A stretch of 64,000 bases of DNA from Procambarus clarkii (taxonomy: Eukaryota; Arthropoda; Malacostraca; Decapoda; Cambaridae). Below the pieces are notes generated by a model. The model saw nothing but the letters and a program-made list of their open reading frames with translations, ran no database searches and had not been told where the DNA came from. Of the stretch, positions 12,701 through 64,000 are shown piece after piece (positions within the stretch are counted from its first letter, which is position 1; every line of letters begins with the position of its first letter). The position numbers and the translations under genes are program-made. The stretch lies in assembly GCF_040958095.1 (NCBI RefSeq), contig NC_091160.1, positions 36,533,165 through 36,597,164 on the forward strand, given 5' to 3'.

Positions 12701-15700
12701 TGTGTTTACTTATCAGTGACTTTGGTGAATAAGAACTAGCTCTATCCTAACCTACAATCATGTGTGGTCTGCCTGGGCTCTGGCCTCGACCCACTGCTCA
12801 ATTTTAATTAACCCTGCCAAAGGAAGCAAACTTTTACTTGCCTAGTTATACTTGTGGGGGATGAGCTATGGCTTTTTGGTCCTGCCTCTTGACCACTTAA
12901 CCAACTGCTGTACAGGTTACAGAGCCTACTGGGCTCATCAAAACCAAATAAGCAAGCCTTGTAGCATGCTGGGTGCAGCCAGCTACTAAACCAATCTTAC
13001 TCAGACTTACCCAAGGAAACAGTCTGTATCATGAATCCACTGCTTGATGAAGTGCGACGTAAGAGTTATTGTTGTGTTGGGTAACATTGTAGATTCTAGA
13101 ACTTGTAGGAGTGGGTCTGGGGCAGTATACAGTGTTGCTATTACTACCTGCAACAAACACTTAACTGTGATAAGCCTGAATTACACACAAAAATACAGCA
13201 TATCTGTAAATTGCCATAATTTGGGAAAAATCAATATTTTTAACTTTTCCTTTGAACAATACAGGAAACTTACAAATTCCAAGCCATTGCATTTTGGGTC
13301 AAATTTATCAGCCCTTCACTTTTTTTTGTTTTTTGTTTTGTTTTTAACTGCCAGGAAAATCCTTTATACTTGTTAAGTTATAGAATGAGATTACAGGAAA
13401 AATCATGGAAAACAATATTAGTTGTCTTTGGGTCTTGCAAGATGAGAAAATTTGTTGCTGTCAAAACTAGGTGATGCGGCTTCACTCCCCAAAGTCATGC
13501 GAGTGCCACTCTCTTACTGTGTATCGTCCATAGGAACTTTCAGGGAGGCCCTGCTGTTGTCACTATTACTAATATTCAATAATCCATGAATATTTTAGTT
13601 GCTAAGCTCAAACAGCAGTGTAGGAAGTCCCCGACATTAAGAGATTGATGAATTTATCATAATGGCCACACACTTTACAGAGCCCTGTCAACTGCACTTG
13701 GCAAACCTACCTTAGCCAATTTTTTCAGTAACCCAGATATGAAAGCAATCAAGGACACTATCATACCCGACCTAACTTTAGAAACTCAAAATGTGCTGAA
13801 GCCACTACAAGTGTTAATGGCCACAGCATGTCGTGACTGAAGATAAGCCACCAACACCGAACATTTTTAAAAGCCAAACAAACCTATCGTGCAAATAAAC
13901 AAACTTGCCTGCAATAGCATTGTGCGCAACTCTGTAGTTTTGACTTCTCGCAGCAGTCGCTCTACTACCAGTTGAATTATTGACCCCAAACACTGGTTGA
14001 TGCGACCCTGGCACTGCAGAACCACCACCTCAAGCAGCTTGGCAGCATGGCATTCATCATCCTCCGAACAGTCCTGAAAAATAAAGTATTGCATAACCAA
14101 AATCTTCACAAGTAATATTTTCCCAGTGAGGGAACATGATTTCACAGAAATAAACAAGGATGTCATTTTTAAAAGTCCAGTATAGGGTCATTCTATGACA
14201 GGGCCCAACATCAAATCCCATTGAATTTTTCTCCAAGTTGTGTTGGTCTCAAAAACCAAAAATTAAAATTTCACATCAATCTGACATTTGGTTAACACTT
14301 TGGCACATTGGGCGAGAGAATGCCACCCCACCCCACGGTGCACCACTAGCATTCCACAGGAGCGTGCGGTAATACTGAAAAGTGTATACTCTTTTCAACT
14401 TTGTCATCTCAATTCTCATCCTAGGTTTTTCAATTTGGTATCAATGTGTTCCCAATAGAATTCTCTACAGGACTAAAAGCATATAAAGTCCAAAAGCCCG
14501 GTATACCATCTGCAACAGAGAAAGTGAGAGCGTGTTACCCGGGAGCGTGCAAGAGCAATAAAATGTGTCCTTGCTTGCCTTATTTTATTTGTCTGTCCCT
14601 TCCTCTTTCTATTACACAATTTGATAATAGTCCAAGACGGACCGAAACATCGCTATGTCTGCATTTTCTGATGTGCGGTTTGGTCATATTTTCAGCCACG
14701 TTATTGACTCATCGTCTACATGCATACCAACTCACAGGAAAATTGAAAGCTAATTTCATTGGGGAGGAGGGGGGGGGGGGCCATGTCATAAAACAGCCCT
14801 ATATTAAAGTATGCTTTGTGTTATCCATAACAAACAACACCAGGCTGACTGCAGAATAAATTATATATCACTGGCATTCAACCAACATTCAACATATTGA
14901 CATATAAAAATGTCATGTTATACAAACCTGCGTTAGTATGGTCTTGCACATTTCATATACTGCCAAAAGATGAGCCTCGTTGCTTAAAAATGCATCCGGG
15001 TCAACAGTTACGTAATTATGCAGGGCTGGCATCATCTCCGTGAAGTAGTCAAAGCCATCGTTCCGGAACATCTGCATGATAAGAGAATTTACAAAACCTA
15101 TTTGAAAAAGTTGGATATACAAAAAAAAAAAAAAAAAAAAAAGATACTGCAAGAGCTCAAGCGATGGAATAATTAGCAAAGTGTTTAAAATAGACAAGAG
15201 TAAATGGAAATAAATCATTCCAGTGAACTAAGTAAATCGTACACTGGTTGGCCGAGGCCACCCACAGAACTTCTAGGAGAATATAAATAGGTTTCCCTTT
15301 TTTGTCCCTACCGAGACTCCTTGTCAATAATTATACTCACTGCAATTCCACTTAAAATGATACACATTACTATGTCAATAAAGACTTCCATTCTGCAAGT
15401 TTCATTTCTGCTTGTTATCTCCATTTCTTTGTCACTTATATTTCCTGAGGCAATCCTCAGAAAATTTTTGGTTTCTCTAAAGTGAATGAATACTAAATGG
15501 GCCAAGCAACTGAATACCAGGCTATAGAGGTTCAACACTAATTTCCAAAATGAAAAAGGGAGCACTCTTTATGTACTTTATACCACAACAAATTAACATT
15601 TTAAAATGTACAGAAATTTCATTAATGGTGTAGTTCAAGTACCTATCAAAAGCCTTACGAGTTTCCAATGCATATAATAGGTACAGCAAATAACTTCTGT

Positions 15701-18700
15701 GCATAATATGCACAGTATTTTGGGGTCAGTCAAACAAAATTCCTTTTCTTCCAATACTTTCAAGTTGGTTTGTTACATTTTTAATTTCTAGCAAGAAAAA
15801 ATAGGGGCTATACATTAACAATTACTGTATAGGGCTTAACGGCACCACTATATATTAAACCATTTTTTTTTTAGCACAAGAACAAAGTTGCCTATCACAC
15901 TTAAAAGTCTGTAAAGCATGGAGTGGCTAAAGTCACTTTTAGCACTAAAAGCATTCAATTATGGTGGAAAGTGAAATACCAGTGGCCAAAGAGGCAACAT
16001 TCAGAACAAACTCAAAGGGAAATTTATGAAGTCAGCTGCACTTACCTGATACATCATTTCGAAACATTTCCAAAGGTCTGGAGAGATTCTTGTACTCGTA
16101 AGGCTATAAATGAGTGCAAGTGCTTCTTCATAAAACTCTGAAGGAGAGAAAATAAAAATAGTGTCAGATATAAAAGGAATCTTTCTTGGATTTGTTCTTG
16201 CTAGTGAAAGATCAATTTTAACATGAAAATAATTACATACATAATTATTTGAAGTGTCACGGGACGTACCCCCAATCCTTGTGAAGGACAACTTTTCGAA
16301 ACACTGCCTCCTTGCGCCCCGCCTTACAGTTACTTCTACTGGTCCCCACTCTGGATGTTCAAGTTCACAGTAGTAATGACTCGAAGTTGTGGAAGGATAT
16401 GGTTTCTAGAACATCTGTGCACTCCACTTTTTAATCAACTATATAATGTGAGTATTTTCTTAAAAGAATGTCTCATCTGGGTTTCAATCTTCCACCCTTG
16501 TTCTGTTTCTCCCAATTAAAAGGGCCTGTTTTTGTCAATCCTGTCTATTCCTAAATGTTGGCAGTACACAAACAGGATGACATCAGGAACAAATTTAATG
16601 TACAGTGTTTACCAAAAGAGGAGCTTTGGATATTCCCACACGTGAGCCAGAGAGACAGACAGACAGAGAGAGGGAGGGAAGGGACCCACAAGACTAGAAT
16701 ACAAATTATCAACAAGTACACAGGTACATACTACACCTGGACTACTACCCGTACCCGTACTTCTACCGAAACTGGACGAAACACTACCAAAACAACACAC
16801 ACTGGACCTGGGTGGAGAGGGGGAGAACTACCAAAGCCCACAAGAAGTGACACGCAATATGGGAAATCATTCATATTTGCAAACATATAAGGTCTAAAAC
16901 CAAATTCAAGAAATGAAGTTCATAAATGGCCCCCTAATAGAATTGAACTCAATATTTGGTGCATTTACAGAAACCCACACAAAATACCACATGATAGTGA
17001 AATATGGATCCCAAATTATAATCTATATAGATGTGACAGTAATTAGGGCAAGTGGAGGAGTAGGTCTGTATATTAACCACTTAACTGCACCAACCGAGAA
17101 AACTCTCTATTTTTTCATACCCATTCTAAATGTGTGGGGGGTTAGTTGTGTATGAAATGGACTCTTAGGACCTCCAGAGAGGGGCAGCCATCTTGGAAAA
17201 AAATCCCAGAATGCCCTAGGGCTGCTGGCTTGGTTAGTACTGAATGAGCAACCTTGGGTGGCGCACGCGTTTCTGGCTCCGAAACAGCTGTCTGACGCGG
17301 TGTTGAAAGATCGCGCTCTGTCGGTGAAATTCAAACCTTATTGTTTGAAGAACATAAGTCATAATTTTGGTGAAGCTAGGTGCAATAAGGACCTAACACA
17401 AAGGTCGGATGCAAGTTATACAGCACCTATGAGGACGATACAGCGACCATATCCAATTGTAGCTCTGAGCGCCACCCTGGCCCACCTATGCTATCTCCAA
17501 TTTATTTAGATGATACATAAATGAATTGTTTTCTGTGTTCAGTGATGATGCATCTGATACAAATAGCATAGATGAACAGTGTTAGCAGCTTCCATGGTGG
17601 TGTTTTCCAGATAATTTCAAGAATAGCTGAATCTCTTCTTGACTGACGGACACTCTTGGAGGCTAGCTGAATCTCTTCCTGTGTGGGAACCATACAAAGC
17701 GATCTTTTCACGACTACCTTACGTTTTACAAGCTTGGCTACAAAACACCTACAGGTACTAATGCCAAGGGTGTACGTGAGTGCGTTATTTGCAAGCGCAC
17801 ACAACGAAGAAACCGGAAGCGAAATCTATCTGTACTTGGTGCAACGAGAGCGAAGTTGCGCTGTGTACCATGGACTACTTTGTTGATTATTACTCACTTC
17901 CGAAGTACTGAGTGTGTAATACAGTGTTACTGTGTAAATGGTGTGTGAAACAATACATACTGTCTCCACTCGATCATCCGGATTATATGGGAAGGACCCC
18001 CAGCCGGATTTTCACATTTTTCGGATAATGGTACTTTTTCACCTACGAGTCCAAAAGTGACCATTTCCAACTATTTTTATACTACAAACATAATTTGAAT
18101 TGCCTTGCCACATATAATTATTAAACATTCAATTAGAAACCTCAACTTACCTTGTTGGTGTTCGTCTTCTTGATTGATGCCACACATCTTTAAGTTAAGA
18201 ATTCTTAACAATTTACATAACCTATACTAACACAATACTAAAATTAACACTTAAAATTATTGTACAGTTCATTAAGCAAAGTTAGTTTTGACTGCCAGCT
18301 ACTAAAGCTTCAGTGGTTGAAGGCATTTGGCTTGCCTGTGACGCCTCACTTGTTTAAGGCACTTGCTTGTGCCTCACTTGTTGAAGGTGAGGCACCACAG
18401 GCTTGCCTGTGGCGCCTCACTTGTTGAAGGCGCTTGCTTGCGCCTCACTTGTTGAGGGCGCTTGCTTGTGCCTCACTTGTTGACGGCACTTGGCTTGCCT
18501 GTGGCGCCTCACTTGTTGAAGGCATTTGGCTGCCTGTGATGCCTCACTGGTTGAACAACACGTAACTTGTCTTTAATTGCTAGGACAACCTTCTTCCTCT
18601 TAACAGCTCCAGAACGATTGATGCTGCTACATAGTCTTGGCCATAAATGTTTAAAGTTACTATGAAAATAAAAAAGTTGTTTAAACAAATATTTCACTAC

Positions 18701-21700
18701 TGGTGCAGCACTGTGGTATAACACGAGGGACGGGAGCACATGGGTTGACCAGTGTTGGACGGGCCCACTTGGGGCAGTTATAGTACGTTACGTAGGCCGC
18801 CAGGAGGAAAAAACTAAATATTTTTGAAGGAAACTTCAGCCTGTGCACATTGCTTTTAGGAAACTTATTTATTTGTTATTACATAATTACTAGTACTTAT
18901 TTCATTTGTTTTTGGCTAAGATTAATTGTTCTAAAATTAATGGTAATTCCTGTACCCTGGTGGTCCCTCCCACCCTCCCGACACCACTTACTCACCCCAC
19001 CATGCCTCTAGAGCCACAGGCAGACGGAATTAATACGGTATGGCCGAATTTAACCTTTAAATTTAACCTTTAACAATTTTAATTGACTGTGATTTAATGG
19101 CCAAACCAGCTTTAAGAGTGATCAGGAGCCAGGTCACTAGTTTCATGGAAACCAATGGCCTCCACAATCCAGGCCAACATGGATTCAGAGTGGGAAGATC
19201 ATGCCTCTCACAGCTACTTGACCATTAAGACAAAATCACTGAGGCATTAGAAGAAAAACAATGCAGATGTTGTATACACAGACTTTGCAAAGGCATTCAA
19301 CAAATGTGACCATGGAGTGATTGCACACAAAATTAGGTCATGGGTATAACTGGTAAGTGCGAAGCTGGATACTCAATTTCCTGTCGAACAGAACACAAAG
19401 GGTAACAGTCAATCAAATAAAATCGAGTCCGAGCGCAGTTAAAAGCTCTGTACCTCGAAGTACAGTCCTTGCACCACTGCTGTTCCTTATTCTCATATCA
19501 GATATAGACAAAAATACAAGTCACAGCTTTGTGTCATCCTTTTGCAGATACAAAAATCAGCATGAAAATTACCTCTGCAGAAGACATTGAAAAACTGCAA
19601 ACAGATACAGCAGAATCTCGAGTGACGATCGCCTCAAATGGCGAGCATTTTGGGTAACAATCGCCGATAATTCGTCTCGTATGGCGACTGCTCGTTTGTA
19701 TAACACCAACCGTTCGGGTTGGGGACAAGAGGTTTTCGAGCCTGTTCCTCCTGCCAAGGCCTCTGGGTCTTACCAGTGGCACTTTCTTACTGCCTTTCCC
19801 ATAGACTTCCTTTTCTTTAAGGGCAGAGGGCTTGGAGGACGGGTCTGCCCCGGGGCCTCTGTTGCGGATTCCTGGGGCTGTGGGGGGATGCCTGCTAGCA
19901 GTTCTGGGGCGGTTTGCCACAGAACTGTAAACATGTATTTAAGCCTACAATGAATGTATGAATATATCTATAAAAATGTAAAACAATGGGGACAACCGAG
20001 GGAACAAGAATTGGCCCATATAAGGCAGCTCCTATATATAAAGGCCAATAGGCCATCTATAGTTCCTCAATGTTCAATTGATGATTACAACCCCAAACAG
20101 TTATGAAAACCGTATGAATCAGTATACATGTATAAATATCAGTATATATATTATAATGAAATTTTATACCATGACGATTGCTGATGTTGCAACACCTGCG
20201 ACGATAACCACAATCAAGAAATGATAGCAGCATTTTCGTCGTTGGTCCTGGTAAACTCCACTACATCCATATAGAGCTATTATGTTCATAATAGCAGCAC
20301 TGGTATAAAACCCAGGCAATAATACATTCACAATCGCCTTGAGAATGGTCCAGGATGGACTGAAACGTCGTCATCCCTTCACTTTCTAGGGTGTGGTCTG
20401 GTCAACGGGCAATAATAGTTTAAATCAAAGTATGATAACCGCACTACCCATATTAGTCAACTTGTGAAAATAACAGCACTCTGAGGGGTGCAGTTAAAAC
20501 GAGTGTTAAAAATCAACAAAGGATATTTCTACTTAAAAAAAAAAAAAAATTCAATCAAGAGTGCGTTCCAAGCCATTACGACAATCTAGGACTAGGAAGG
20601 TCAGGATAAGGAATCTTCTCCAGCATGGAATCCATACTGGAGAACCTGAAGAATTTAGATATTTGTAATATGCCTAGTACTAGAATTACAGTGATTTATA
20701 GCAAGAAAGACAGGTTAAGAACTCATTCTAATATGTTGAGAAAGTACAAGGTCTCTTTGCAATTAACAGGTGGAAAGCACTAAAAGTACAAGTTGGTTAA
20801 GCAACCTTCTCAATAACTTAATGAGCAAACATGATTCAGTACTAACAAAGATACTCCAGTTACAAGAAGCTGCATATAAAGTATAGAGCACTAAACTTCA
20901 CTTCATAAAAATTGATGGGCATCCATTTAGAATCTTCCCTTTACCATTAGTGTATACATAATTCCTGAAATTATCAAGCCGACATGCAAATAACCTGAAA
21001 TTTATAATTATATTTTTTAATTGAATAAATATAGCCATCTTGTAATCTTGGAAAGCAACAATTTGATAATATGTAATGGAATTGTATTTTTGAAAAAAGC
21101 AATATGGCAAAAAAAACTTACCCATCACATTTTTGGTGAGGATAAGACCAACAACTTGCAGTGTAATTGGTTCAATCTGTTCCATTATTTTAGGATTCTC
21201 TTCCATGCAGTTGATTAGGGTTTCAATTGTGCTAAGCAAGCCCATGGCTGTTATGGCCTTCTCATCTGCACCATCTTCAGCATCCACGACCTAGAAGCAT
21301 AACAATTCTTGCTTTCAAAGCATACAAAATAATCACCACCTTCAATATACAGCCAAATTTAATGGCTAACAAATTTAATCAGTAAAGAAAAAATGGCAAA
21401 GCAATTTAAATAATGGACTCTTAAAAAATGGCAGTTGGTAATTAAGTTGAAAAAGGGACTAGGAACAATATCCCTTATCTGAACAGTTTACTCTTCCAGT
21501 TAGCTCTTTATATTGGTCATCTTGAAGTTATATTTGTATTGGCCCTGCAAATACTCCATTTTCAACCTTGGAATGGCCCAATACCCAATTATATGGCCTC
21601 AAAATATTAGCTCACTCATGCAAATTACCTCCAAACTAACATTTTCAGAAAGTGTTCCTCATTTTTATTTAGCACACCACCACCTAAAAGAGCACACAAA

Positions 21701-24700
21701 TTTAATTTAGTAATAAATAGATAATATAAACTAAAGTAATTTGGAACTGAGCATGTTTATTTTCAAGATAAATTTTTAATGTCATTCACCAATACAGTTT
21801 GAAAAAGGCAGATAACAGTACTCCCAATGATATCTGGTTACATTCTGCCCGAGTTACAAACTTCAAAAAATGTCTAAATGATAAATTCAGTTAAATACAT
21901 GTTGAAAACTATCCATGGCTAATATAGGGTAAAAAAAAATGAGTAATCATCAGTTGGATTTAGAAATAAATTTACGATCCAAATAAATAAAACAGAAGAT
22001 ACATGAACAAATCCACAAGGGTCGTGACGAGAATTCGAACCTACGTCTGAGAGCATCCTAGATGCTGTAACTTTTTGTAAAGCTGCTTATAACGCTGCTC
22101 TCGGACATAGATTCGAATCCCTTGTAGATTTGTTCATTTGATGCATCACGCTATTGTGATTTGTGTGTGTAACAGAAGACCCATTCATTACAACAGAAAA
22201 CTTGCTTTTAATCACCTGTTGGAATGTTGCTGCTAACTGAGTACACATTTCTACAGCAATTGGTGTCAGTTGGTCAGTGTAGGTGGTGACAATCTTGCAC
22301 ATCACATTGGTTAAATCATCATTTTCAGTCTCCTTTATGACCTTAAGTAGTTCTTGAACAATTGGTCTAATCTGGAAATCATAATAATTGCATATTCATT
22401 AGCTTGATACAAAAGTCAAAGTCACTTATTAAACAGATGAGATGAGGAAAAGGCATTTCTTTACAAATGTTCATATGCCCATTATTAAAAGAGCAGAGTG
22501 AAAATATTGAAACTTGTCACCAATATGGAACTTAAAGTTTACAATTATTAACAGGCCAATGAAAAAAATTCTCAAGAATCGATACAACAATAAACACATT
22601 ATAAAGTTAACAATGGAGTTCACTCACATTTGGTTCCACTATTTTCTCAGCTTTGTTTTGAGAGGCGAGGAAAGCTGAAAGAGCCATAGCTGCTTCTACC
22701 TTGACTGGTAGGTCGTGATCATTGAGTAGGGAATTCTGAATACAGTTCATGGCTGCCATAATGTTTTGATCCGATTTGAATCTAATCTCATCAAAGTTTT
22801 GCAGGATCCAACAAGCCTGAAAGATTTTTGTTTCATTAGATGTACAATAGGTATATTTTAATTAGTATACTGTACTGCTTCAAGAACTATCCACTAATTC
22901 ATTTTTGGGAACAATTAGAATAAATAAATCAATAAAACAAAACACATTCCTGCATACATTGAGTGGAAATCATTAAGAAATTAACATGATGAATGTGAAA
23001 ATATATAAACACGAAGGGAAAATAAACAAAAAATTATTTGAGCCCTTTTGTGTTAACACATCAGCAAAAGTATAATCAATGCAATATAGTACTTTAATAC
23101 ATAGGCAAGGAAAAGAAAGGTGATATTCGAGGTGAAAAACAATATCTTTGTAACATTGGTTCCTGAACATAAGAATATGTGGAAACTGCACAGTCCAATG
23201 ACCAATACATGCAAGTTCCTACAAGTAATGTCCCTATGGGCATAGTTGTCTATTAATCATAAGTAATTACCTAAGTGTAGTTACAGGATGAGAGCTACGC
23301 TCGTGGTGTCCTGTCTTCCCAGCACTCTTTGTCATATAACACTTTGAAACTACAATCTACTGCACATCTAGCCGCGTCAACACGGGGCATAATCTAGCCT
23401 CTAGAGCCAACCTCGAAATACATAATAACAGGGGAGGGGGGGGGGGGGGAACCTTGCAAAGTGAAGTTGTCTCAAATGGTCCGAGTATTAAATGAAATCT
23501 TTTCCTCATACAAGTAAGCTGTTCTCCTCCCAATATATCAGTTAAAAAAAGGGTGCTGCATGACCCAATAATAATATGCAACTTGTTCACACCAGCATAC
23601 ATAAGTATGGAAGTTTGAAACCAATGTGCATTGACTTTTTCCAGATATTGCAAAAACAGCACAAATAAATAAAATAAAATTATATATATATATATTAAAA
23701 AAAGGTGGAAACTATAGTATTGGAGTTAGGAATTTCTTTGGAAACAATAAATGAACACAGTACTGTATTACGTAAAGTCAGCCAAAATAAATATTGTTAG
23801 CTTTCCTCTCCACATTTTACAACCTTTTACAAGATTATTTAAGACTAGAATACCACACTACACTTACCCGTGCTCTCATGAAGCCAAATGGACTCTGAAA
23901 CTCAGGAAAGACATATTGGGCAATCATAGTTTCCATCTGATCCTTGTAGATCTTCTTCTTGAGCAATACACCTCCCATTGTGCCAATCTACATAAAGGAA
24001 AAGAAGAAAACTTGAATTACACTCATAATAGCTTTCCTTAAAATTTACAGTTATTTCTGAGCTATCACACTCGGTTACTCCCAAAAGACAAGGTCCTACT
24101 GCATCCCCTAATAAAGATCTCACCTAAGATAATATTCAACATAACATTCCAGCAGTAGGAAATATCGCTGCTGGTTGCATTATTTTAAGAGATGGCTATT
24201 CTGGTCCAATTGCCTAGTCAAGATCTTAGTATCTGCTCAAACTCCCATCTCAGTGTAAGGCAATCAAAATTGTTATGAACAAATGCTGGCATTCAAGGGG
24301 TTGCAAACTACGCACTGGAAGCTCCTTATAGCATGCCTCTAGTTGTTTTAGTTCCCATCTAGTACCTTAACCAAGTCCTCTTAATTCAGGTACTATCTCT
24401 ACTGTGTTAAGTAACATCTTTACTGTGTTACGTAGCATCTCTACTGTAGTGACTAGCCTTATTGCAAATTTATCTTGTCTTTTTTTTCCTGAATGCTATT
24501 TTTAGATCTCCCAGCTTTCCATGTGCAGCCAATGTATACATGTCAGCATGAGCATCATGTGTAAAAGACAAGCTACAATATTTAAGAGAAGCTCGCAACT
24601 GGAAAACCATTTCAAATCAAGATAGATCCGCTTATTTAGTACAATAATGTAAGACTAAATATGCAATTACCATATGCATAACACCATCCTTGTGTCTTGG

Positions 24701-34413: not shown

Positions 34414-35410
34414 CTGTAAAGATTGCAGACATAATAACTTTGTTAGAATTATTGTAGTTTTATTGTAATGACAACAGCTTGTTAAGAGTATTCAATGAGC
34501 AGGAATTACATGAAACTATTGGAAAAGATAAAATCAGTGCATAACTATTCTTTTTTTTTATTTAATTAGTAATGTGTACACATTTTGTTGCAAATGTTTA
34601 TGGTATTTTATGTAAACATGACATTCACAACAGAAAAAGTGTGTATTTGAACCTAATCTGTAATAAAAAAATTGTTAACTTCTTACACATGTTATGAGAA
34701 AAATAAAATTAATAGAATAAAGGATAAGAAGAAATAAATGGAAAGTTTTAAAAAGAAGTATTTAAGGCAGAAGTAATATTCACGACTTCTGCATACTGTA
34801 TACAGTATAGTATTGTATATGGATGGACCTACCAAGAAATGAAGCAAAAGTAAACCTCAAGTACCTGTAAAAGGAATCCCAGAGTTCTGAACCTCTGAGC
34901 TGCAAACATGCAATCAACACCATCCTCTGAACCTTCAAACCAATGTCTGCAGTGGTATGGACATCACCACGTAGCCTGCTTGCCCATATATAGTATCAGA
35001 TCCAAACTCTGGCAGCATCTGTAGACAGTGGTTGTTACCATCCACCTGCCTACACTGCTCAGTCAAATCATTTTTGTCCTGGATTGATTAATGGTGAGCA
35101 TAGTATCAAGATATTTTCTGGGATGGCCCTCAACAGCTTCCCAGTTCATTTGCTTCCATACTAAACACACCCAGAGGCCTAGGAGGCCTCTGAATTTCAT
35201 AAGCCTTTTGAACACCATGGTGACCCACAATTGCTCCAAACCAAGTAAAAGTGCCCAGAAAGCACAGGTAAAACAAAAACTACATACTGTACTTTGATTA
35301 AAGAGAAAAGATGGAACAATGAAAAACTGTAGTTTGCCCAATGACAACAAATTAGGCACTTGTACCCAAGCACAACCAAGTAAGTAAAGTCATAGATTTA
35401 AACTAATGAA

Positions 35411-35592
35411 ACACAGCTGCTGGAGAAATATAAAAAAACATTCTTTCACAGAGTGATAGACAATTGGAACAAGTTAGGCGAGGTGGTGGTGGAGGCCAAA
35501 ACCATCAGTAATTTCAAAGCATTATATGACAAATGTGCTGGGAAGATGGGACACCACGAACATTGCTCTCATCCTGTAACTACACTTGGGTA
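35411..35592 (+). mobile_element. LINE C-terminal tail fragment (also 61181-61374)
   Basis: The second copy reads RVIDNWNKLGEVVVEAKTIS followed by NFKALYDK, the standard tail motif of CR1-like LINE polymerases. Copy 1 lacks four bases (CAAA) just before this motif and is shifted. Confidence 0.75.
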
Positions 35593-36148: not shown

Positions 36149-36409
36149 TGTTATACTCAAATTCTGTCAGTTGAAATGTAACCAATCGCAGGCGAGTAGG
36201 CCTCTGACGTCATGCCAGACAGAGGAGCATCAGCCATGCTCCCAGCAGCCTCAGTTATCCTCACAGACTCAGAGTAGAAGGACCTCGGCTAGGCAGATAT
36301 ATACCTTGCTATCTCAGTCAATAAATATATACAGAAGCGACTACTGTGTCTACCTTCTACCCGAACAAGGCAAACGAATGTTTTCTTTCTCCTAATGCCA
36401 CTGTTAACA
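36149..36409 (+). mobile_element. Possible solo LTR (also about 61930-62194)
   Basis: 261 bp that start TGTTATACTC and end CACTGTTAACA, so the ends are TGTTA...TAACA. In between, in promoter-like order: CCAAT (36182), a perfect cAMP-response element TGACGTCA (36205-36212), TATA-like GATATATA (about 36296), and AATAAATATATA. No target-site duplication is evident and no internal retroelement genes are near, so solo-LTR status is an inference. Confidence 0.4.
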
Positions 36410-37065: not shown

Positions 37066-37604
37066 CTGTTACTGACCAACACCTGCTTACAGTGAGCCTG
37101 AGAGCTGGCTCTCAGCTACCTTGTCCCTCACAGTTCTGAGTTACAGCAGCCATCACATGGGAAGGGAGCCAGGTCTGGGTGCAAGATGACATCCTGGTTA
37201 AAAATATGCCTTCTCTTCCCTTTCAAAACAGATCACTTAAAAATCATGGAGGTTCACATCGTTAGGCTTGCTAGTGTGGGACTTACTAGTGTTCCCTGGA
37301 TGGATGGGATGCTTACTGTCTTGTTCCGATACATTCATGTTTCAGGGAACGAGTTTCAGTGTGTCACCCCTGCTATCACTTCTGGTCGTCTCTCTTTGGG
37401 CTAAACTTCAAGCACCTTCAGCAGGATAACTAACAATTTAACTAAACACAAATGCAATGGGAGGAAAATGGAGAGGCAGGGGGGGGGGGTGAGTATATAT
37501 AATAAAAAAAACTTCAGGGGCTTAAAAGATTTTGGCATCTTATAAAATTTTACCAGTTTGTAAAAGCAGTTTTCAAAATTTTGGGCATGTTATTTGCATT
37601 GCAG

Positions 37605-38500
37605 CCACCCTAGCCAGGTGCCCCAAAATCAGGCACCCTAGCCATGTGCCCCAAAATCAGGCACCCTAGCCATGTGCCCCAAAATCAGGCACCCTAGCCA
37701 TGTGCCCCAAAATCAGGCACCCTAGCCAGGTGCCCCAAAATCAGGCACCCTAGCCAGGTGCCCCAAAATCAGGCACCCTAGCCAGGTGCCCCAAAATCAG
37801 GCACCCTAGCCAGGTGCCCCAAAATCAGGCACCCTAGCCAGGTGCCCCAAAATCAGGCACCCTAGCCAGGTGCCCCAAAATCAGGCACCCTAGCCAGGTG
37901 CCCCAAAATCAGGCACCCTAGCCAGGTGCCCCAAAATCAGGCACCCTAGCCAGGTGCCCCAAAATCAGGCACCCTAGCCAGGTGCCCCAAAATCAGGCAC
38001 CCTAGCCAGGTGCCCCAAAATCAGGCACCCTAGCCAGGTGCCCCAAAATCAGGCACCCTAGCCAGGTGCCCCAACCAGCCACCCTAGCCAGGTGCCCCAA
38101 CCAGGCACCCTAGCCAGGTGTCCCAACCAGGCACCACCACACCACCCTAGCCAGGTGCCACAACCAGGCACCCTAGCCAGGCACCACCACACCACCCTAG
38201 CCAGGTGCCACAACTAGGCACCCTAGTCAGGCACCACCACACCACCCTAGCCAGGTGCCACAACCAGGCACCACCACACCACCCTAGCCAGGTGCCACAA
38301 CTAGGCACCCTAGTCAGGCACCACCACACCACCCTAGCCAGGTGCCCCAACCAGGCACCCTAGCCAGGTGCCCCAACCAGGCACCCTAGCCAGGTGCCCC
38401 AACCAGGCACCCTAGCCAGGTGCCCCAACCAGGCACCCTAGCCAGGTGCCCCAACCAGGCACCCTAGCCAGGTGCCCCAACCAGGCAACCCTAGCCAGGT
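37605..38500. repeat. Minisatellite, 28-bp unit with shorter variants, copy 1
   Basis: Tandem units of CACCCTAGCCAGGTGCCCC followed by AAAATCAGG; period 28 bp, roughly 16-17 units up to about 38075. Then come 26-bp units in which AAAATC is replaced by AACC, plus a composite block with CACCACCACACC spacers (about 38130-38340). The first units carry CATGTG in place of CAGGTG. The array is cut by the gap. Confidence 0.97.
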
Positions 38501-39000
38501 NNNNNNNNNNNNNNNNNNNNNNNNNNNNNNNNNNNNNNNNNNNNNNNNNNNNNNNNNNNNNNNNNNNNNNNNNNNNNNNNNNNNNNNNNNNNNNNNNNNN
38601 NNNNNNNNNNNNNNNNNNNNNNNNNNNNNNNNNNNNNNNNNNNNNNNNNNNNNNNNNNNNNNNNNNNNNNNNNNNNNNNNNNNNNNNNNNNNNNNNNNNN
38701 NNNNNNNNNNNNNNNNNNNNNNNNNNNNNNNNNNNNNNNNNNNNNNNNNNNNNNNNNNNNNNNNNNNNNNNNNNNNNNNNNNNNNNNNNNNNNNNNNNNN
38801 NNNNNNNNNNNNNNNNNNNNNNNNNNNNNNNNNNNNNNNNNNNNNNNNNNNNNNNNNNNNNNNNNNNNNNNNNNNNNNNNNNNNNNNNNNNNNNNNNNNN
38901 NNNNNNNNNNNNNNNNNNNNNNNNNNNNNNNNNNNNNNNNNNNNNNNNNNNNNNNNNNNNNNNNNNNNNNNNNNNNNNNNNNNNNNNNNNNNNNNNNNNN
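38501..39000. other. Assembly gap of 500 N
   Basis: Exactly 500 N between a minisatellite on the left and the start of the second repeat copy on the right. The round size suggests a placeholder. No overlap is resolved across it. Confidence 0.99.
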
Positions 39001-39666: not shown

Positions 39667-42600
39667 CTGCAATAGCATTGTGCGCAACTCTGTAGTTTTG
39701 ACTTCTCGCAGCAGTCGCTCTACTACCAGTTGAATTATTGACCCCAAACACTGGTTGATGCGACCCTGGCACTGCAGAACCACCACCTCAAGCAGCTTGG
39801 CAGCATGGCATTCATCATCCTCCGAACAGTCCTGAAAAATAAAGTATTGCATAACCAAAATCTTCACAAGTAATATTTTCCCAGTGAGGGAACATGATTT
39901 CACAGAAATAAACAAGGATGTCATTTTTAAAAGTCCAGTATAGGGTCATTCTATGACAGGGCCCAACATCAAATCCCATTGAATTTTTCTCCAAGTTGTG
40001 TTGGTCTCAAAAACCAAAATTAAAATTTCACATCAATCTGACATTTGGTTAACACTTTGGCACATTGGGCGAGAGAATGCCACCCCCCCACGGTGCACCA
40101 CTAGCATTCCACAGGAGCGTGCGGTAATACTGAAAAGTGTATACTCTTTTCAACTTTGTCATCTCAATTCTCATCCTAGGTTTTTCAATTTGGTATCAAT
40201 GTGTTCCCAATAGAATTCTCTACAGGACTAAAAGCATATAAAGTCCAAAAGCCCGGTATACCATCTGCAACAGAGAAAGTGAGAGCGTGTTACCCGGGAG
40301 CGTGCAAGAGCAATAAAATGTGTCCTTGCTTGCCTTATTTTATTTGTCTGTCCCTTCCTCTTTCTATTACACAATTTGATAATAGTCCAAGACGGACCGA
40401 AACATCGCTATGTCTGCATTTTCTGATGTGCGGTTTGGTCATATTTTCAGCCACGTTATTGACTCATCGTCTACATGCATACCAACTCACAGGAAAATTG
40501 AAAGTGTGAGCTAATTTCATTGGGGAAGGGGGGGGGGGGCCATGTCATAAAACAGCCCTATATTAAAGTATGCTTTGTGTTATCCATAACAAACAACACC
40601 AGGCTGACTGCAGAATAAATTATATATCCACTGGGCCATTCAACCAAACATTCAACATATTGACATATAAAAATGTCATGCTATACAAACCTGCGTTAGT
40701 ATGGTCTTGCACATTTTCATATACTGCCAAAAAGATGAGCCTCGTTGCTTAAAAATGCATCCGGGTCAACAGTTACGTAATTATGCAGGGGCTGGCATCA
40801 TCTCCGTGAAGTAGTCAAAGCCATCGTTCCGGAACATCTGCATGATAAGAGAATTTACCAAAACCTATTTGAAAAGTTGGATATACAAAAAAAAAAAAAA
40901 AAAAAAAAAAAAGATACTGCAAGAGCTCAAGCGATGGAATAATTAGCAAAGTGTTTAAAATAGACAAGAATAAATGGAAATAAATCATTCCAGTGAACTA
41001 AGTAAATCGTACACTGGTTGGCCGAGGCCACCCACAGAACTTCTAGGAGAATATAAATAGGTTTCCCTTTTTTGTCCCTACCGAGACTCCTTGTCAATAA
41101 TTATACTCACTGCAATTCCACTTAAAATGATACACATTACTATGTCAATAAAGACTTCCATTCTGCAAGTTTCATTTCTGCTTGTTATCTCCATTTCTTT
41201 GTCACTTATATTTCCTGAGGCAATCCTCAGAAAATTTTTGGTTTCTCTAAAGTGAATGAGTACTAAATGGGCCAAGCAACTGAATACCAGGCTATAGAGG
41301 TTCAACACTAATTTCCAAAATGAAAAAGGGAGCACTCTTTATGTACTTTATACCACAACAAATTAACATTTTTAAAATGTACAGAAATTTCATTAATGGT
41401 GTAGTTCAAGTACCTATCAAAAGCCTTACGAGTTTCCAATGCATATAATAGGTACAGCAAATAACTTCTGTGCATAATATGCACAGTATTTTGGGGTCAG
41501 TCAAACAAAATTCCTTTTCTTCCAATACTTTCAAGTTGGTTTGTTACATTTTTAATTTCTAGCAAGAAAAAATAGGGGCTATACATTTACAATTACTGTA
41601 TAGGGCTTAACGGCACCACTATATATTAAACCATTTTTTTTTTAGCACAAGAACAAAGTTGCCTATCACACTTAAAAGTCTGTAAAGCATGGAGTGGCTA
41701 AAGTCACTTTTAGCACTAAAAGCATTCAATTATGGTGGAAAGTGAAATACCAGTGGCCAAAGAGGCAACATTCAGAACAAACTCAAAGGGAAATTTATGA
41801 AGTCAGCTGCACTTACCTGATACATCATTTCGAAACATTTCCAAAGGTCTGGAGAGATTCTTGTACTCGTAAGGCTATAAATGAGTGCAAGTGCTTCTTC
41901 ATAAAACTCTGAAGGAGAGAAAATAAAAATAGTGTCAGATATAAAAGGAATCTTTCTTGGATTTGTTCTGGCTAGTGAAAGATTAATTTTAACATGAAAA
42001 TAATTACATACATAATTATTTGAAGTGTCACGGGACGTACCCCCAATCCTTGTGAAGGACAACTTTTCGAAACACTGCCTCCTTGCGCCCCGCCTTACAG
42101 TTACTTCTACTGGTCCCCACTCTGGATGTTCAAGTTCACAGTAGTAATGACTCGAAGTTGTGGAAGGATATGGTTTCTAGAACATCTGTGCACTCCACTT
42201 CTTAATCAACTATATAATGTGAGTATTTTCTTAAAAGAATGTCTCATCTGGGTTTCAATCTTCCACCCTTGTTCTGTTTCTCCCAATTAAAAGGGCCTGT
42301 TTTTGTCAATCCTGTCTATTCCTAAATATTGGCAGTACACAAACAGGATGACATCAGGAACAAATTTAATGTACAGTGTTTACCATAAGAGCTTTGGATA
42401 TTCCCACACGTGAGCCAGAGAGAGACAGACAGACAGAGAGAGAGGGAGGGAAGGGACCCACAAGACTAGAATACAAATTATCAACAAGTACACAGGTACA
42501 TACTACACCTGGACTACTACCCGTACCCGTACTTCTACCGAAACTGGACGAAACACTACCAAAACAACACACACTGGACCAGGGTGGAGAGGGGGGAGAA

Positions 42601-45600: not shown

Positions 45601-48600
45601 CAGAGGGCTTGGAGGACGGGTCTGCCCCGGGGCCTCTGTTGCGGATTCCTGGGGCTGTGGGGGGATGCCTGCTAGCAGTTCTGGGGCGGTTTGCCACAGA
45701 ACTGTAAACATGTATTTAAGCCTACAATGAATGTATGAATATATCTATAAAAATGTAAAACAATGGGGACAACCGAGGGAACAAGAATTGGCCCATATAA
45801 GGCAGCTCCTATATATAAAGGCCAATAGGCCATCTATAGTTCCTCAATGTTCAATTGATGATTACAACCCCAAACAGTTATGAAAACCGTATGAATCAGT
45901 ATACATGTATAAATATCAGTATATATATTATAATGAAATTTTATACTATGACGATTGCTGATGTTGCAACACCTGCGACGATAACCACAATCAAGAAATG
46001 ATAGCAGCATTTTCGTCGTTGGTCCTGGTAAACTCCACTACATCCATATAGAGCTATTATGTTCATAATAGCAGCACTGGTATAAAACCCAGGCAATAAT
46101 ACATTCACAATCGCCTTGAGAATGGTCCAGGATGGACTGAAACGTCGTCATCCCTTCACTTTCTAGGGTGTGGTCTGGTCAACGGGCAATAATAGTTTAA
46201 ATCAAAGTATGATAACCGCACTACCCAATATTAGTCAACTTGTGAAAATAACAGCACTCTGAGGGGTGCAGTTAAAACGAGTGTTAAAAATCTACAAAGG
46301 ATATTTCTACTTAAAAAAAAAAAAAAAATTCAATCAAGAGTGCGTTCCAAGCCATTACGACAATCTAGCACTAGGAAGGTCAGGATAAGGACTCTTCTCC
46401 AGCATGGAATCCATACTGGAGAACCTGAAGAATTTAGATATTTGTAATATGCCTAGTACTAGAATTACAGTGATTTATAGCAAGAAAGACAGGTTAAGAA
46501 CTCATTCTAATATGTTGAGAAAGTACAAGGTCTCTTTGCAATTAACAGGTGGAAAGCACTAAAATTACAAGTTGGTTAAGCAACCTTCTCAATAAGTTAA
46601 TGAGCAAACATGATTCAGTACTAACAAAGATACTCCAGTTACAAGAAGCTGCATATAAAGTATAGAGCACTAAACTTCACTTCATAAAAATTGATGGGCA
46701 TCCATTTAGAATCTTCCCTTTACCATTATACATAATTCCTGAAATTATCAAGCCGACATGCAAATAACCTGAAATTTATAATTATATTTTTTAATTGAAT
46801 AAATATAGCCATCTTGTAATCTTGGAAAGCAACAATTTGATAATATGTAATGGAATTGTATTTTTGAAAAAAGGAATATGGCAAAAAAAACTTACCCATC
46901 ACATTTTTGGTGAGGATAAGACCAACAACTTGCAGTGTAATTGGTTCAATCTGTTCCATTATTTTAGGATTCTCTTCCATGCAGTTGATTAGGGTTTCAA
47001 TTGTGCTAAGCAAGCCCATGGCTGTTATGGCCTTCTCATCTGCACCATCTTCAGCATCCACGACCTAGAAGCATAACAATTCTTGCTTTCAAAGCATACA
47101 AAATAATCACCACCTTCAATATACAGCCAAATTTAATGGCTAACAAATTTAATCAGTAAAGAAAAAATGGCAAAGCAATTTAAATAATGGACTTAAAAAA
47201 TGGCAGTTGGTAATTAAGTTGAAAAAGGGACTAGGAACAATATCCCTTATCTGAACAGTTTACTCTTCCAGTTAGCTCTTTATATTGGTCATCTTGAAGT
47301 TATATTTGTATTGGCCCTGCAAATACTCCATTTTCAACCTTGGAATGGCCCAATACCCAATTATATGGCCTCAAAATATTAGCTCACTCATGCAAATTAT
47401 CTCCAAACTAACATTTTCAGAAAGTGTTCCTCATTTTTATTTAGCACACCACCACCTAAAAGAGCACACAAATTTAATTTAGTAATAAATAGATAATATA
47501 AACTAAAGTAATTTGGAACTGAGCATGTTTATTTTCAAGATAAATTTTTAATGTCATTCACCAATACAGTTTGAAAAGGGCAGATAACAGTACTCTCAAT
47601 GATGTCTGGTTACATTCTGCCCGAGTTACAAACTTTAATAAATACCTAAATGATAAATTCAGTTAGATACACGTTGAAAAACATCCATGGCTAATACAAG
47701 GTAAAAAAAAATTGGTAATCATCAGTTGGATTTAAAAATAAATTTAGGATCCAAATAAATAAAACATAGAAGATCCATGAACAAATCCACAAGGGTCGTG
47801 ACGAGAATTCAAACCTACGTCCGAGAGCATCCCAGACGCTGTAACTTTTTGTAAAGCTGCTTATAACGCTGCTCTCTGACGTAGGTTCGAATCCTTGTCA
47901 TGGCCTTTTAGATTTGTTCATTTGATGCATCACGCTATTGTGATTTGTGTGTAACAGAAGACCCATTCATTACAACAGAAAACTTGCTTTTAATCACCTG
48001 TTGGAATGTTGCTGCTAATTGAGTACACATTTCTACAGCAATTGGTGTCAGTTGGTCGGTGTAGGTGGTGACAATCTTGCACATCACATTGGTTAAATCA
48101 TCATTTTCAGTCTCCTTTATGACCTTAAGTAGTTCTTGAACAATTGGTCTAATCTGGAAATCATAATAATTGCATATTCATTAGCTTGATACAAAAGTCA
48201 AAGTCACTTATTAAACAGATGAGATGAGGAAAAGGCATTTCTTTACAAATGTTCATATGCCCATTATTAAAAGAGCAGAGTGAAAATATTGAAACTTGTC
48301 ACCAATATGGAACTTAAAGTTTACAATTATTAACAGGCCAATGAATAAATTTCTCAAGAATCGATACAACAATAAACACATTATAAAGTTAACAATGGAG
48401 TTCACTCACATTTGGTTCCACTATTTTCTCAGCTTTGTTTTGAGAGGCGAGGAAAGCTGAAAGAGCCATAGCTGCTTCTACCTTGACTGGTAGGTCGTGA
48501 TCATTGAGTAGGGAATTCTGAATACAGTTCATGGCTGCCATAATGTTTTGATCCGATTTGAATCTAATCTCATCAAAGTTTTGCAGGATCCAACAAGCCT

Positions 48601-57600: not shown

Positions 57601-60187
57601 ATTAGTAGATAACTTTTTATTACAGCACATTTAGTGTGCAGCCCTTACTTCATACTGGAATGCCATGTGCATCCACCACATCATTCTAATTGCCCATAAC
57701 TACTAAAACATCTTGGAACCACAACAATCTCACTCTCTAAATTAACTGGAATATGTACTAAACTAAATTTACACTCACTCAAAATTTTTTACAAGTTGAT
57801 AAAGACACAGAAGACTGCCATTCCAGAGACTTGTGTCTGGATTCTGGAGGTATATACTTATTTTATCAACAATAGTTGTCCATCTTCCTGGGAAGTCGTG
57901 TTTCACCATCTGATATGTACACACAGCCAGCTGCACTCTGTAACATAACCAATTATTAGTTTAATCTCTGGGCGCTGATAATAATAGCCGACAACACCGC
58001 TGTGTTCAAGAAAAACATAGTTTTCTCCATAGAAGGGAAAAAAATCTTAAACAAAACAAAATTAACAATCTTAAAACTAAGATTGTTAAAATGTGTTCCC
58101 TGATCACGGGATAAATAATAACAAAAATCGTAGGCGACATATTTTGGCCGCAATAGGGCAAGGAAGTCTGGCAAGATTGTGGAGCTGACACAGTACACGT
58201 CCAGGGCCAGTCTCCTCCACCTGAGTCATCAGATGGGAATTGCCACAAAGATATTACTGTATTACCTAAATATTTCAATGTCTGATTTTTTTTGTAGTAT
58301 TATTATTCAATAATGTGTAGTGTAATAAATTTATATAATAAAGTGTGTGAACCATTGCTATACTCAAAAGTATGGTGTGCATATTAGTGATTGAATTATG
58401 GTCATTAAACAATACAAAAATATTTTTGCCGTTTTTACACTACAGTATATACACACGTTATATAAAAGTATCTGCATGTTTTGTTCACAATAACGAACCA
58501 TTAAGCTGGTATGGTGCATCAAAACAGCATAGTGGCCACCAACACACCAGTCAACAAACGACGCTGCCTCACTCGCCAACATTCCTCCTCCCACCATACT
58601 GTTCGTGCTGTTATTACACTATATACACATGCCTTATGTATGTATTTACATGTGTAGCATATTTAAACATGATAAAAATAGGGCAATAATAAATTATAAA
58701 TGCTTTTTTAGCAGACCCTTTGTTGTCTACAAGCCAGAAGCCAAAGTCAATCCAGGAACTGCTCACATGCCAGGCTCTAGGCAACCTTTGCATCAAATAA
58801 GAACTTTCCAAAATACCAAGTCACCACAAGAAGTCACCAATACAAGGCTTAGAGTGAATAGCTCACATAAGTCCTCAAAACATCCAAGCATGAAACAGTG
58901 GCAATGAGGACAATCAAGGGCCAGTTCAGAGTCATTTCAATGCTCCAACCACCACCTACCTCTTGCCTACCTGTTGACGATTGCTAGGATCTGTGTCTCC
59001 ATGGCCTGACCTCTGACCAGGCCTAAATACCTTGTACAATGACTAATCCAAATTCCATTTCACATCTCATATCCAGAAGAAATGCCAAATTAAAACCTAT
59101 TGGTAAAATTAAACTTCCTTGCACCAAGAATCTAGACCATTCAGTACACCTTGCAACATTTTGAGACCAATGCTTACTTGGTTGCCATTACCGAGATCAC
59201 CAGAAAGTGGATTCGAACACACCCATGGGTTCACGAGCTGCGAGGCGTGGATAGCGATTATCAGGAATAAACATGTACACAGAATGTACAAAATTAAGAA
59301 AATTATGATGACCAAACCCCACATCAGAAGAAGAAACAACGACATTTTGGTGTGTCCTGGACCTGAAAAGACGAAACGTTGTTTCTTCATCTCCTGATGT
59401 GTGATTTGGTCAAATCTCCAGCCCTGTTATTGTGTCATAGTTTGCAACAAAACTATTTCACCCTGTTGCAAGTCATCATTATTCCTAAAATAACAACTGT
59501 ACTGTACATTATCTCTTTTCCCCATTTGAGTGACATCATTACAAAGAAAAAAAAATTCTAACAAAACACTTATTTACTGGCAGAAACAAACGTGGAAATC
59601 AGTGACATCATAAGACAAGCATGGCAACAACAGTAAATAAGGCAATCAGAGAAACCAGAATAGAAAAACAGAAATACCGGAAGGGCCCAGCAAACTGAGT
59701 TTAGGCAATGCACAGGAGACTAACAGGTGAAAATCAAAGTATTGGTCCAAAAGTTTCCAAGACAAGAATCCTAAGAAAAACATTCCTTCATCAAGCATCA
59801 CTGTATTTTTTTGGTCATTAGATTGTACACAAATTAACAAGCAGATACTTTGGAATCCCATTTGTAAACAATCCTTCATAATATTTATCATTAAAAGATA
59901 TTCAGTAATTAATTCATTGTTGTGTATTTTCCCACAAGCAAAAAGCCTTACCTCACCAAGTCTGGAGCATGGACAACTGCATCTACTATGGCATCCCGGA
60001 TCATGGCACGATCTTGTTCATGTATATGAAAAGGTTTGGGTTCACCACACTCATACTCTGCATCCTTCCAGTATTGTGCCACCATATTTTTTAAGTAAAT
60101 TACTCCTGCTTGACGTACAGGCATATCTAATTCTCCCATCATCACTACTTGAAGGAGGGCTGGTGTAAATCCAATTATTTTTTTCAT
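39667..60187 (-). CDS. IPO7: Second copy of IPO7 exons 1-14 (partial; probable alternate haplotype)
   Basis: Fourteen exons repeat those at 13909-34413, in the same order and with the same splice sites: 59952-60187, 57779-57937, 55874-56030, 55307-55491, 52896-53069, 51318-51463, 50449-50612, 49646-49765, 48410-48598, 47998-48153, 46896-47064, 41817-41908, 40691-40837, 39667-39831. Together they correspond to 752 codons. The coding differences I found are synonymous except in 40691-40837, which carries three 1-nt insertions. The seven C-terminal exons are absent because this copy begins at the N-gap edge. Introns differ from the first copy by scattered SNPs and small indels. This pattern fits an allelic contig placed next to its partner better than an independent gene. 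Confidence 0.85.
40691..40837 (-). pseudogene. IPO7: IPO7 exon 13, second copy, frame broken by three homopolymer +1 insertions
   Basis: 147 nt versus 144 nt in the intact exon at 14928-15071. The extra bases are one G in 40788-40791, one A in 40729-40733 and one T in 40714-40717. Read on the minus strand, the frame is lost from the first insertion until the third restores it. Flanking intron sequence shows the same kind of single-base additions, so consensus error is more likely than a true mutation. Confidence 0.85.
53729..55167. mobile_element. TTAA-bounded MITE-like element, copy 2
   Basis: Same terminal inverted repeats and flanking TTAA as 27967-29400, with small internal indels: an extra ACAGT near 54434 and changes near 54903-54925. 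Confidence 0.7.
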
Positions 60188-63100
60188 CTGTAAAGATTGC
60201 AGACATAATAACTTTGTTAGAATTATTGTAGTTTTATTGTAATGACAACAGCTTGTTAAGAGTATTCAATGAGCAGGAATTACATGAAACTATTGGAAAA
60301 GATAAAATCAGTGCATAACTATTCTTTTTTTTTATTTAATTAGTAATGTGTACACATTTTGTTGCAAATGTTTATGGTATTTTATGTAAACATGACATTC
60401 ACAACAGAAAAAGTGTGTATTTGAACCTAATCTGTAATAAAAAAAATTGTTAACTTCTTACACATGTTATGAGAAAAATAAAATTAATAGAATAAAGGAT
60501 ATGAAGAAATAAATGGAAAGTTTTAAAAAGAAGTATTTAAGGCAGAAGTAATATTCACGACTTCTGCATACTGTATACAGTATAGTATTGTATATGGATG
60601 GACCTACCAAGAAATGAAGCAAAAGTAAACCTCAAGTACCTGTAAAAGGAATCCCAGAGTTCTGAACCTCTGAGCTGCAAACATGCAATCAACACCATCC
60701 TCTGAACCTTCAAACCAATGTCTGCAGTGGTATGGACATCACCACGTAGCCTGCTTGCCCATATATAGTATCAGATCCAAACTCTGGCAGCATCTGTAGA
60801 CAGTGGTTGTTACCATCCACCTGCCTACACTGCTCAGTCAAATCATTTTTGTCCTGGACTGATTAATGGTGAGCATAGTATCAAGATATTTTCTGGGATG
60901 GCCCTCAACAGCTTCCCAGTTCATTTGCTTCCATACTAAACACACCCAGAGGCCTAGGAGGCCTCTGAATTTCATAAGCCTTTTGAACACCATGGTGACC
61001 CACAATTGCTCCAAACCAAGTAAAAGTGCCCAGAAAGCACAGGTAAAACAAAAACTACATACTGTACTTTGATTAAAGAGAAAAGATGGAACAATGAAAA
61101 ACTGTAGTTTGCCCAATGACAACAAATTAGGCACTTGTACCCAAGCACAACCAAGTAAGTAAAGTCATAGATTTAAACTAATGAAACACAGCTGCTGGAG
61201 AAATATAAAAAAACATTCTTTCACAAACAGAGTGATAGACAATTGGAACAAGTTAGGCGAGGTGGTGGTGGAGGCCAAAACCATCAGTAATTTCAAAGCA
61301 TTATATGACAAATGTGCTGGGAAGATGGGACACCACAAACATAGCTCTCATCCTGTAACTACACTTGGGTAATTACACCACCAGGTGGATTCATTCGTGA
61401 CTAGTCAGCATCATAAGCTTCCTGCCTATGCTAAATTTACTGCAATCCATTCCACTTGGACACTGCCTCTCCAGGCCCTGCTACTGAGTAGTTTTGGTAA
61501 ACCTGACTCTGGTGATGTTTTCTCCAGTGTTCCTTGTTGGCATGTGAGAGCCCCTGGTGGTGGAAACTGTCATCTCTAACCCAAAAGGTGGGACACATAT
61601 GGATGATCATTAACAATTTTGAAACATTCAACTCTTCCTAGGTAAACTCTGCATAATTTGACACACCAATGAGTGAAACAATGGTTATCTGCTTAACCAC
61701 TGGCACATGTGTTTTCCAAACCCCACATCTTAGCAGAGACTATAAAATGCCTTACATTTTTCAAAGTATTATAATGAGAGGATGCTTAAGTTTTGGGAAA
61801 AGGGGCAGCACACGCTTTATATTAATACATCCAGTCTCTTGTAACTCCTGGAAGCAGAGTTGGATTCATTCAACTCGCCTAGTACCCCAGGTTTGATTCC
61901 AAAGCGGGAGAGAAATGGATGGATATGTTTGTTATACTCAAATTCTGTCAGTTGAAATGTAACCAATCGCAGGCAAGTAGGCCTCTGACGTCATGCCAGA
62001 CAGAGGAGCATCAGCCATGCTCCCAGCAGCCTCAGTTATCCTCACAGACTCAGAGTAGAAGGACCTCGGCTAGGCAGATATATACCTTGCTATCTCAGTC
62101 AATAAATATATACAGAAGCGACTACTGTGTCTACCTTCTACCCGAACAAGGCAAACGAATATGTTTTCTTTCTCCTAATGCCACTGTTAACAGTAACTAG
62201 GTACCTGGGTTTTTCCATGCCAAATAGACACAAATCTGAACTCTTCTGTTGTCAATCTCCTTGCTAGCTAAATCTCTCTGACCTATAGATTCTTCTTTAT
62301 GTTTAAGCCTCTCCAGCAGCCCTGTTTTCCGTGTGCAGTATACATTATTTTACCCTCCCTCTCCAACTTGACACTGGTAAATGCTCCAGATTTGGACATT
62401 GTAACAACACAGGATCAACACTTAATTTACATTCCTGGGTCTTCTCATATCCACCACTGGAAACGTGTGCACTGCCTTCAACTGGCATTCCTTCCTTCTC
62501 AAAACAGTTCATTCTTTATTGGAGGTCTTACCTGCTTGACGGGGTTCTGGGAGTTGTTCTACTCCCCAAGCCTGGTCTGAGGTCAGGCTCAACTTGTGAG
62601 AGTTTGGTCAACCAGGCTGTTGCTTGGAGCGGCTCGCAGGCTCACATATCCACCACAGCCCGGTTGGTCCGGCACTTCTTGAAGAAAACTATTTAGTTTT
62701 CTCTTGAAGATGTCCATCGTTGTTCTGGCAATATCTTTTATGCTTGCTGGAAGGATGTTGAACAACCATGGACCTCTGATGTTTTCAACTGTTTGCACCA
62801 AGGATTTCACAAAGACACTCTTCACTCCCGTGAATGTGGGATCTCCACCTGTTACTGACCAACACCTGCTTACAGTGAGCCTGAGAGCTGGCTCTCAGCT
62901 ACCTTGTCCCTCACAGTTCTGGGTTACAGCAGCCATCACATGGGAAGGGAGCCAGGTCTGGGTGCAAGATGACATCCTGGTTAAAAATATGCCTTCTCTT
63001 TCCTTTCAAAACAGATCACTTAAAAATCATGGAGGTTCACATCGTTAGGCTTGCTAGTGTGGGACTTACTAGTGTTCCCTGGATGGATGGGATGCTTACT

Positions 63101-63386
63101 GTCTTGTTCCGATACACCCATGTTTCAGGGAACGAGTTTCAGTGTGTCACCCCTGCTATCACTTCTGGTCGTCTCTCTTTGGGCTAAACTTCAAGCACCT
63201 TCAGCAGGATAACTAACAATTTAACTAAACACAAATGCAATGGGAGGAAAATGGAGGCAGGGGGGGGGGGGTGAGTATATATAATAAAAAAAACTTCAAG
63301 GGCTTAAAAGATTTTGGCATCTTATAAAATTTTACCAGTTTGTAAAAGCAGTTTTCAAAATTTTGGGCATGTTATTTGCATTGCAG

Positions 63387-64000
63387 CCACCCTAGCCAGG
63401 TGCCCCAAAATCAGGCACCCTAGCCATGTGCCCCAAAATCAGGCACCCTAGCCAGGTGCCCCAAAATCAGGCACCCTAGCCAGGTGCCCCAAAATCAGGC
63501 ACCCTAGCCAGGTGCCCCAAAATCAGGCACCCTAGCCAGGTGCCCCAAAATCAGGCACCCTAGCCAGGTGCCCCAAAATCAGGCACCCTAGCCAGGTGCC
63601 CCAAAATCAGGCACCCTAGCCAGGTGCCCCAAAATCAGGCACCCTAGCCAGGTGCCCCAAAATCAGGCACCCTAGCCAGGTGCCCCAAAATCAGGCACCC
63701 TAGCCAGGTGCCCCAAAATCAGGCACCCTAGCCAGGTGCCCCAAAATCAGGCACCCTAGCCAGGTGCCCCAAAATCAGGCACCCTAGCCAGGTGCCCCAA
63801 AATCAGGCACCCTAGCCAGGTGCCCCAAAATCAGGCACCCTAGCCAGGTGCCCCAACCAGGCACCCTAGCCAGGTGCCCCAAAATCAGGCACCCTAGCCA
63901 GGTGCCCCAAAATCAGGCACCCTAGCCAGGTGCCCCAACCAGCCACCCTAGCCAGGTGCCCCAACCAGGCACCCTAGCCAGGTGTCCCAACCAGGCACCA
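63387..64000. repeat. Minisatellite, copy 2, running off the window end
   Basis: Same unit and same variant order as at 37605. The 28-bp section is longer here (about 20 units up to roughly 63940), only one unit has CATGTG instead of three, and a single AACC-type unit lies inside the 28-bp block near 63853. Length difference between the copies is as expected for minisatellite alleles. Confidence 0.96.

Follow-up and report, generated by a model that had tools for sequence, protein, structure and literature searches.

A 25-kb direct repeat on the two sides of an assembly gap

Does this locus carry a real duplication within the gene for importin 7 (IPO7), or has the assembly set two versions of the same region one after the other? 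The window, that is, the whole 64-kb stretch analysed, contains one run of N, which covers positions 38501-39000 and is exactly 500 N long. When the two sides of this gap were compared by BLAST, 13241-38222 matched 39001-63999 in direct orientation over 25,074 columns with 98.8% identity. The first homologous bases are 13241 and 39001, and the initial 390 bp of the match are identical. These results agree with an earlier note on this DNA, which had described a near-identical direct repeat across a 500-N gap, the second copy starting at the first base after it.

The first copy (13241-38500) forms the right end of the contig before the gap (contig 1), and the second copy (39001-64000) forms the left end of the contig after it (contig 2). 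Position 39001 is the first base of contig 2, so that zero bases precede the start of homology there. At the other side of the gap, the units of a tandem array in contig 1 could be aligned by BLAST up to 38500; unit-for-unit matching covers the part of the array that has a counterpart in copy 2 before the window edge. The homology therefore dovetails at the facing contig ends, running from 39001 in contig 2 and up to 38500 in contig 1. Copy 2 is truncated by the window edge at 64000, and its right end lies out of view. The left flank of contig 1 (1-13240) is not repeated past the gap within the window.

Both copies lie on the same scaffold, separated by the 500 N, and the sequence between the end of copy 1 and the start of copy 2 consists of N alone, which could conceal a junction. 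In one published assembly made with 3D-DNA, 500 Ns were the spacer between contigs (PMC10320752). We infer that the N run at 38501-39000 is likewise scaffold filler joining two contigs. No exact 8-base word on the same strand was common to the final 900 bp of copy 1 and the 500 bp that precede 13241; thus, no repeat that could drive unequal crossover is seen at the visible ends.

Gene model of IPO7 across the repeat

The peptides of exons 2-8 matched Xenopus importin 7 (PDB 6n88_A) with an E-value of 3.5e-163, and those of the later exons matched the same protein with 1.1e-120. The importin-beta N-terminal domain (IBN_N, Pfam) was also detected in the exon peptides (E 8.5e-10). These matches confirmed the identification of the gene as IPO7, which lies on the minus strand.

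Exon borders were placed by hand: a human guide sequence was matched by tblastn, and borders were chosen among the AG and GT/GC candidates close to the matches. Because they were hand-picked, the splice dinucleotides are partly given by construction, and the real test of the model is the agreement of intron phases together with an open frame. By this test the model of contig 1 holds: copy 1 and the left flank jointly give exons 2-22 (21 exons) in one open frame of 1008 codons to the stop codon, beginning at about residue 29 and with consistent intron phases. Two of the modelled introns have a GC donor instead of GT, namely, those after exon 15 (13907-13908) and after exon 21 (6249-6250).

Exons 2-15 are inside the repeat, whereas exons 16-22 are single-copy and lie in the left flank. 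In copy 1, exons 15 to 2 occupy 13909-34413 on the minus strand, and all 14 exons (2256 coding bp) are in frame. In copy 2 they occupy 39667-60187, also on the minus strand; 13 of the 14 exons equal their copy 1 counterparts in length, and exon 14 is longer by three bases and internally out of frame. Exon 16 (13011-13147, minus strand) belongs to the unrepeated flank, and the homology starts 93 bases to the right of it, within intron 15. Introns 1 and 15 both appear to be phase 0, the phase of intron 1 being deduced from the start of exon 2 only. We had considered that a tandem copy would break the IPO7 frame, and this argument was dropped on account of the shared phase.

Exon 1, which should encode residues 1-28, was not found in the window either by tblastn with a human N-terminus or by residue patterns, and such a short exon could be missed. 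The repeat thus comprises exons 2-15, contrary to the earlier statement that it includes exon 1. Exon 1 probably lies beyond 64000 on contig 2. When the two contigs are overlaid, they make up one gene, with no surplus in the visible part, and contig 1 wants exon 1 only. Contig 1 carries exons 2-22 and contig 2 runs from intron 15 towards exon 1, so the two look like the two ends of one tiling path.

Differences between the copies

Copy 1 has 24,361 bp ahead of a minisatellite. Over this stretch, 24,295 columns could be aligned with copy 2 and contained 119 SNPs; the 62 indels total 154 bases and are at most 14 bp long. An initial MAFFT alignment had given 133 SNPs and 57 indels in the same region; the counts changed upon affine-gap realignment, which was used throughout, because clusters such as that at 15093-15105 were misaligned run-length changes. 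With 14 bp as the largest indel, no whole element is private to one copy, in line with the earlier observation that transposon relics sit at matching places in both.

The SNP divergence is 0.39% outside a 319-bp patch described below. There, transitions outnumber transversions (57 vs 36; P 3e-8 against equal rates), and the coding sequence contains three SNPs against 9.3 expected from the noncoding rate (P 0.017). All three are synonymous (codons 231, 570, and 583). Coding indels are likewise scarce if exon 14 is left out (0 in 2112 bp vs 4.9 expected, P 0.007), but with exon 14 counted there are three against 5.9 expected (P 0.16), so that this deficit holds only without that exon. The transition excess and the deficit of coding SNPs suggest that most of the differences resemble biological variation and not read error. 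Most look like polymorphism, the exception being a cluster of run-length changes at 40628-40871. The earlier note had called the coding differences synonymous; this is right for the SNPs, whereas exon 14 of copy 2 bears three 1-base insertions that give two stop codons.

The insertions are at 40714, 40729, and 40788, within the run-length cluster of copy 2 (40628-40871, corresponding to 14868-15105 in copy 1). The whole block has 23 one-base run-length indels, and seven of them fall in these 238 bp of copy 1; in six of the seven copy 2 has the extra base. None of 20,000 uniform simulations reached seven in 238 bp, a width whose bounds were chosen after the cluster had been seen. The cluster is bordered by one long run of G and one of A, and short-read polishing may fail between such runs. 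The cluster looks like a local consensus error, and copy 2 is probably the erroneous one because copy 1 is in frame there. We also considered that copy 2 is a decaying pseudogene, as its three insertions and two stops might imply, and rejected this because the indels are clustered and the other 13 exons of copy 2 are free of indels.

The divergent patch spans 21806-22124 in copy 1 (47578-47908 in copy 2) and holds 26 SNPs in 319 bp (8.2%), whereas the maximum in 5000 simulations was 11. It overlaps a palindromic element at 22003-22137 and extends some 200 bp beyond that element. The patch could have arisen by conversion from a further copy of the element, by mis-polishing, or as a segment of an old allele. 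The palindromic element contains the word GGTTCGAAT, which we take to be similar to a tRNA B box.

Spread of SNPs along the block

Outside the patch, the index of dispersion of the SNPs was 0.91 in 1-kb bins and 1.10 in 2-kb bins, and with the patch included it rose to 5.7 and 6.9, respectively; the patch was dropped from this test only after it had been seen. The earlier description of the intron SNPs as scattered does not fully stand, since 26 of the 119 SNPs are packed into 319 bp. In rough coalescent simulations (constant population size, a broad theta prior, one bin fewer than in the data, and a similar number of SNPs), values as low as those observed appeared in 0.5-8% of pairs at rho/theta of 0.1-3 and in 6-23% at rho/theta of 10, compared with 42-65% without recombination. 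Hence, with the patch excluded the SNPs are distributed more evenly than is usual for recombining alleles, and with it included they are far too uneven. The even spread leans towards a single age for the whole block, as would follow a duplication, or towards a locus with little recombination. We had thought of the SNP spread as proof of alleles; this use was abandoned, and since the SNPs outside the patch are too even, the spread was counted against alleles.

Minisatellite at the contig end

A 28-bp minisatellite occupies 37602-38500 in copy 1, where contig 1 stops inside the array, and 63384-64000 in copy 2, where the array continues to the end of the window. Tandem arrays are usual places for contigs to break. 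Both arrays show a leader, a 52-bp variant block, and then a 26-bp variant block in the same order. The shared 52-bp block is preceded by 16 units in copy 1 and by 19 units in copy 2, so the unit number does differ between the copies, as had been noted from the sequence. Furthermore, T-variant units number three in copy 1 and one in copy 2, and copy 2 carries an additional 26-bp unit. This pattern would fit two alleles of one minisatellite.

Origin of the repeat

Taken together, the positions of the contig ends, the 500-N gap, and the joint fit of the contigs to one IPO7 support the earlier proposal that two alleles of one locus stand in series. We regard it as highly probable that the repeat is an assembly artefact, in which a heterozygous contig overlap (a false heterotype duplication) was left unmerged. 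The contig of one haplotype would run from the 3' end of IPO7 through exon 2 and stop in the minisatellite of intron 1, and the contig of the other haplotype would start in intron 15 and continue past exon 2 towards exon 1. Both would cover the same 25 kb, and the assembler would have left them unmerged on account of SNPs at about 0.4%, 62 indels, the 8% patch, and the unequal length of the arrays. The scaffolder would then have set the contigs end to end with 500 N between them. We infer that the two copies are alleles. The apparent duplication of IPO7 is probably not real, and most likely the genome carries a single IPO7 here. Gaps between the members of a pair on one scaffold are among the published marks of false duplication (PMC9516828).

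If the duplication were true and recent, exons 2-15 would have been copied in tandem and in frame within IPO7, and the gap at the minisatellite would conceal the junction. The locus would then resemble partial (intragenic) tandem duplications, in which internal exons of one gene are directly repeated, and the shared phase of introns 1 and 15 would let a transcript keep its frame, exon 1 itself being unseen. The SNPs outside the one patch are spread as evenly as after a split of a single age, and a breakpoint within the minisatellite would allow a contig break to hide the junction; graph assemblers tend to cut at repeat borders. However, unlike in such duplications, the junction is unseen and contig 2 starts exactly where the homology starts. 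On this reading, the base right behind the junction would have to be the first of contig 2, without any minisatellite left ahead of it. Copies distinct enough to be assembled separately should also yield junction reads, a second set of 14 exons would have to be accommodated inside one IPO7 gene, and the visible ends share no repeat, although the right breakpoint, if there is one, would be hidden in the gap. We therefore judge this duplication to be unlikely.

Two further explanations appear less plausible still. In a homotype false duplication, one haplotype would have entered the assembly two times at the end of a contig, and the differences would be read errors. A length of 25 kb is within long-read range, and the run-length error cluster lies near an end of copy 2. 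Homotype false duplications often occur at the boundaries of contigs, with lengths close to that of a read (PMC8081667). The excess of transitions, the low rate of coding SNPs, the indels of 8-14 bp, and the differing minisatellite maps are nevertheless unlike random read errors, and this explanation is very improbable. It is just as hard to credit that a paralogue from a dispersed segmental duplication elsewhere in the genome was misplaced beside IPO7. Such an origin would account for both a single age of the block and the missing junction, and the insertions in exon 14 could then be real decay; yet these insertions are clustered with other run-length changes, the other 13 exons of copy 2 are without indels, and contig 2 continues in the very direction in which contig 1 still wants exon 1.

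Relation to known cases of false duplication

An unmerged allelic overlap at IPO7 would probably be an artefact of a well-known kind. It is similar to the heterozygous overlaps described in the purge_dups paper, in which matching contig ends are both kept as primary and left in place by scaffolding (PMC7203741). That paper links such overlaps with high heterozygosity, for which it cites most insects and marine animals. It is also similar to the false heterotype duplications of the Vertebrate Genomes Project (VGP), in which an assembly gap separates allelic copies on a single scaffold; in a published figure of an earlier zebra finch assembly, ZBTB11 is for the most part duplicated next to itself (PMC8081667, PMC9516828). 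The purge_dups method also requires read depth (PMC7203741) and the VGP cases draw on depth, k-mers, and linked reads (PMC8081667, PMC9516828), whereas the evidence at IPO7 comes from the sequence itself.

If left in place, the artefact would yield either a false second IPO7 gene or a fused model that repeats 14 exons, and it would be counted as a gain in copy number. When reads are absent, false duplication is strongly suggested by gene content that is divided between contig ends facing each other. A true duplication, on the other hand, would give an IPO7 locus with doubled internal repeats and hence a test of what a nuclear import receptor tolerates.

Other contents of the window

The window gave 0 Rfam matches at the gathering cut-off and 0 tRNAs with ARAGORN. 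Its repeats are of a style that would point to an arthropod and perhaps to a crustacean. A search for IPO7 relatives in viral contigs returned seven pattern matches, of which none was confirmed. For 6851-9400, no phage match was obtained. Within this interval, remains of a retroelement were found at 7425-9019 on the minus strand, in the intron that separates exons 20 and 21 of IPO7 (intron 20). They include a remnant of a reverse transcriptase at 8591-9019 (Pfam RVT_1, E 9.3e-13), together with an RNase H match below the Pfam cut-off.
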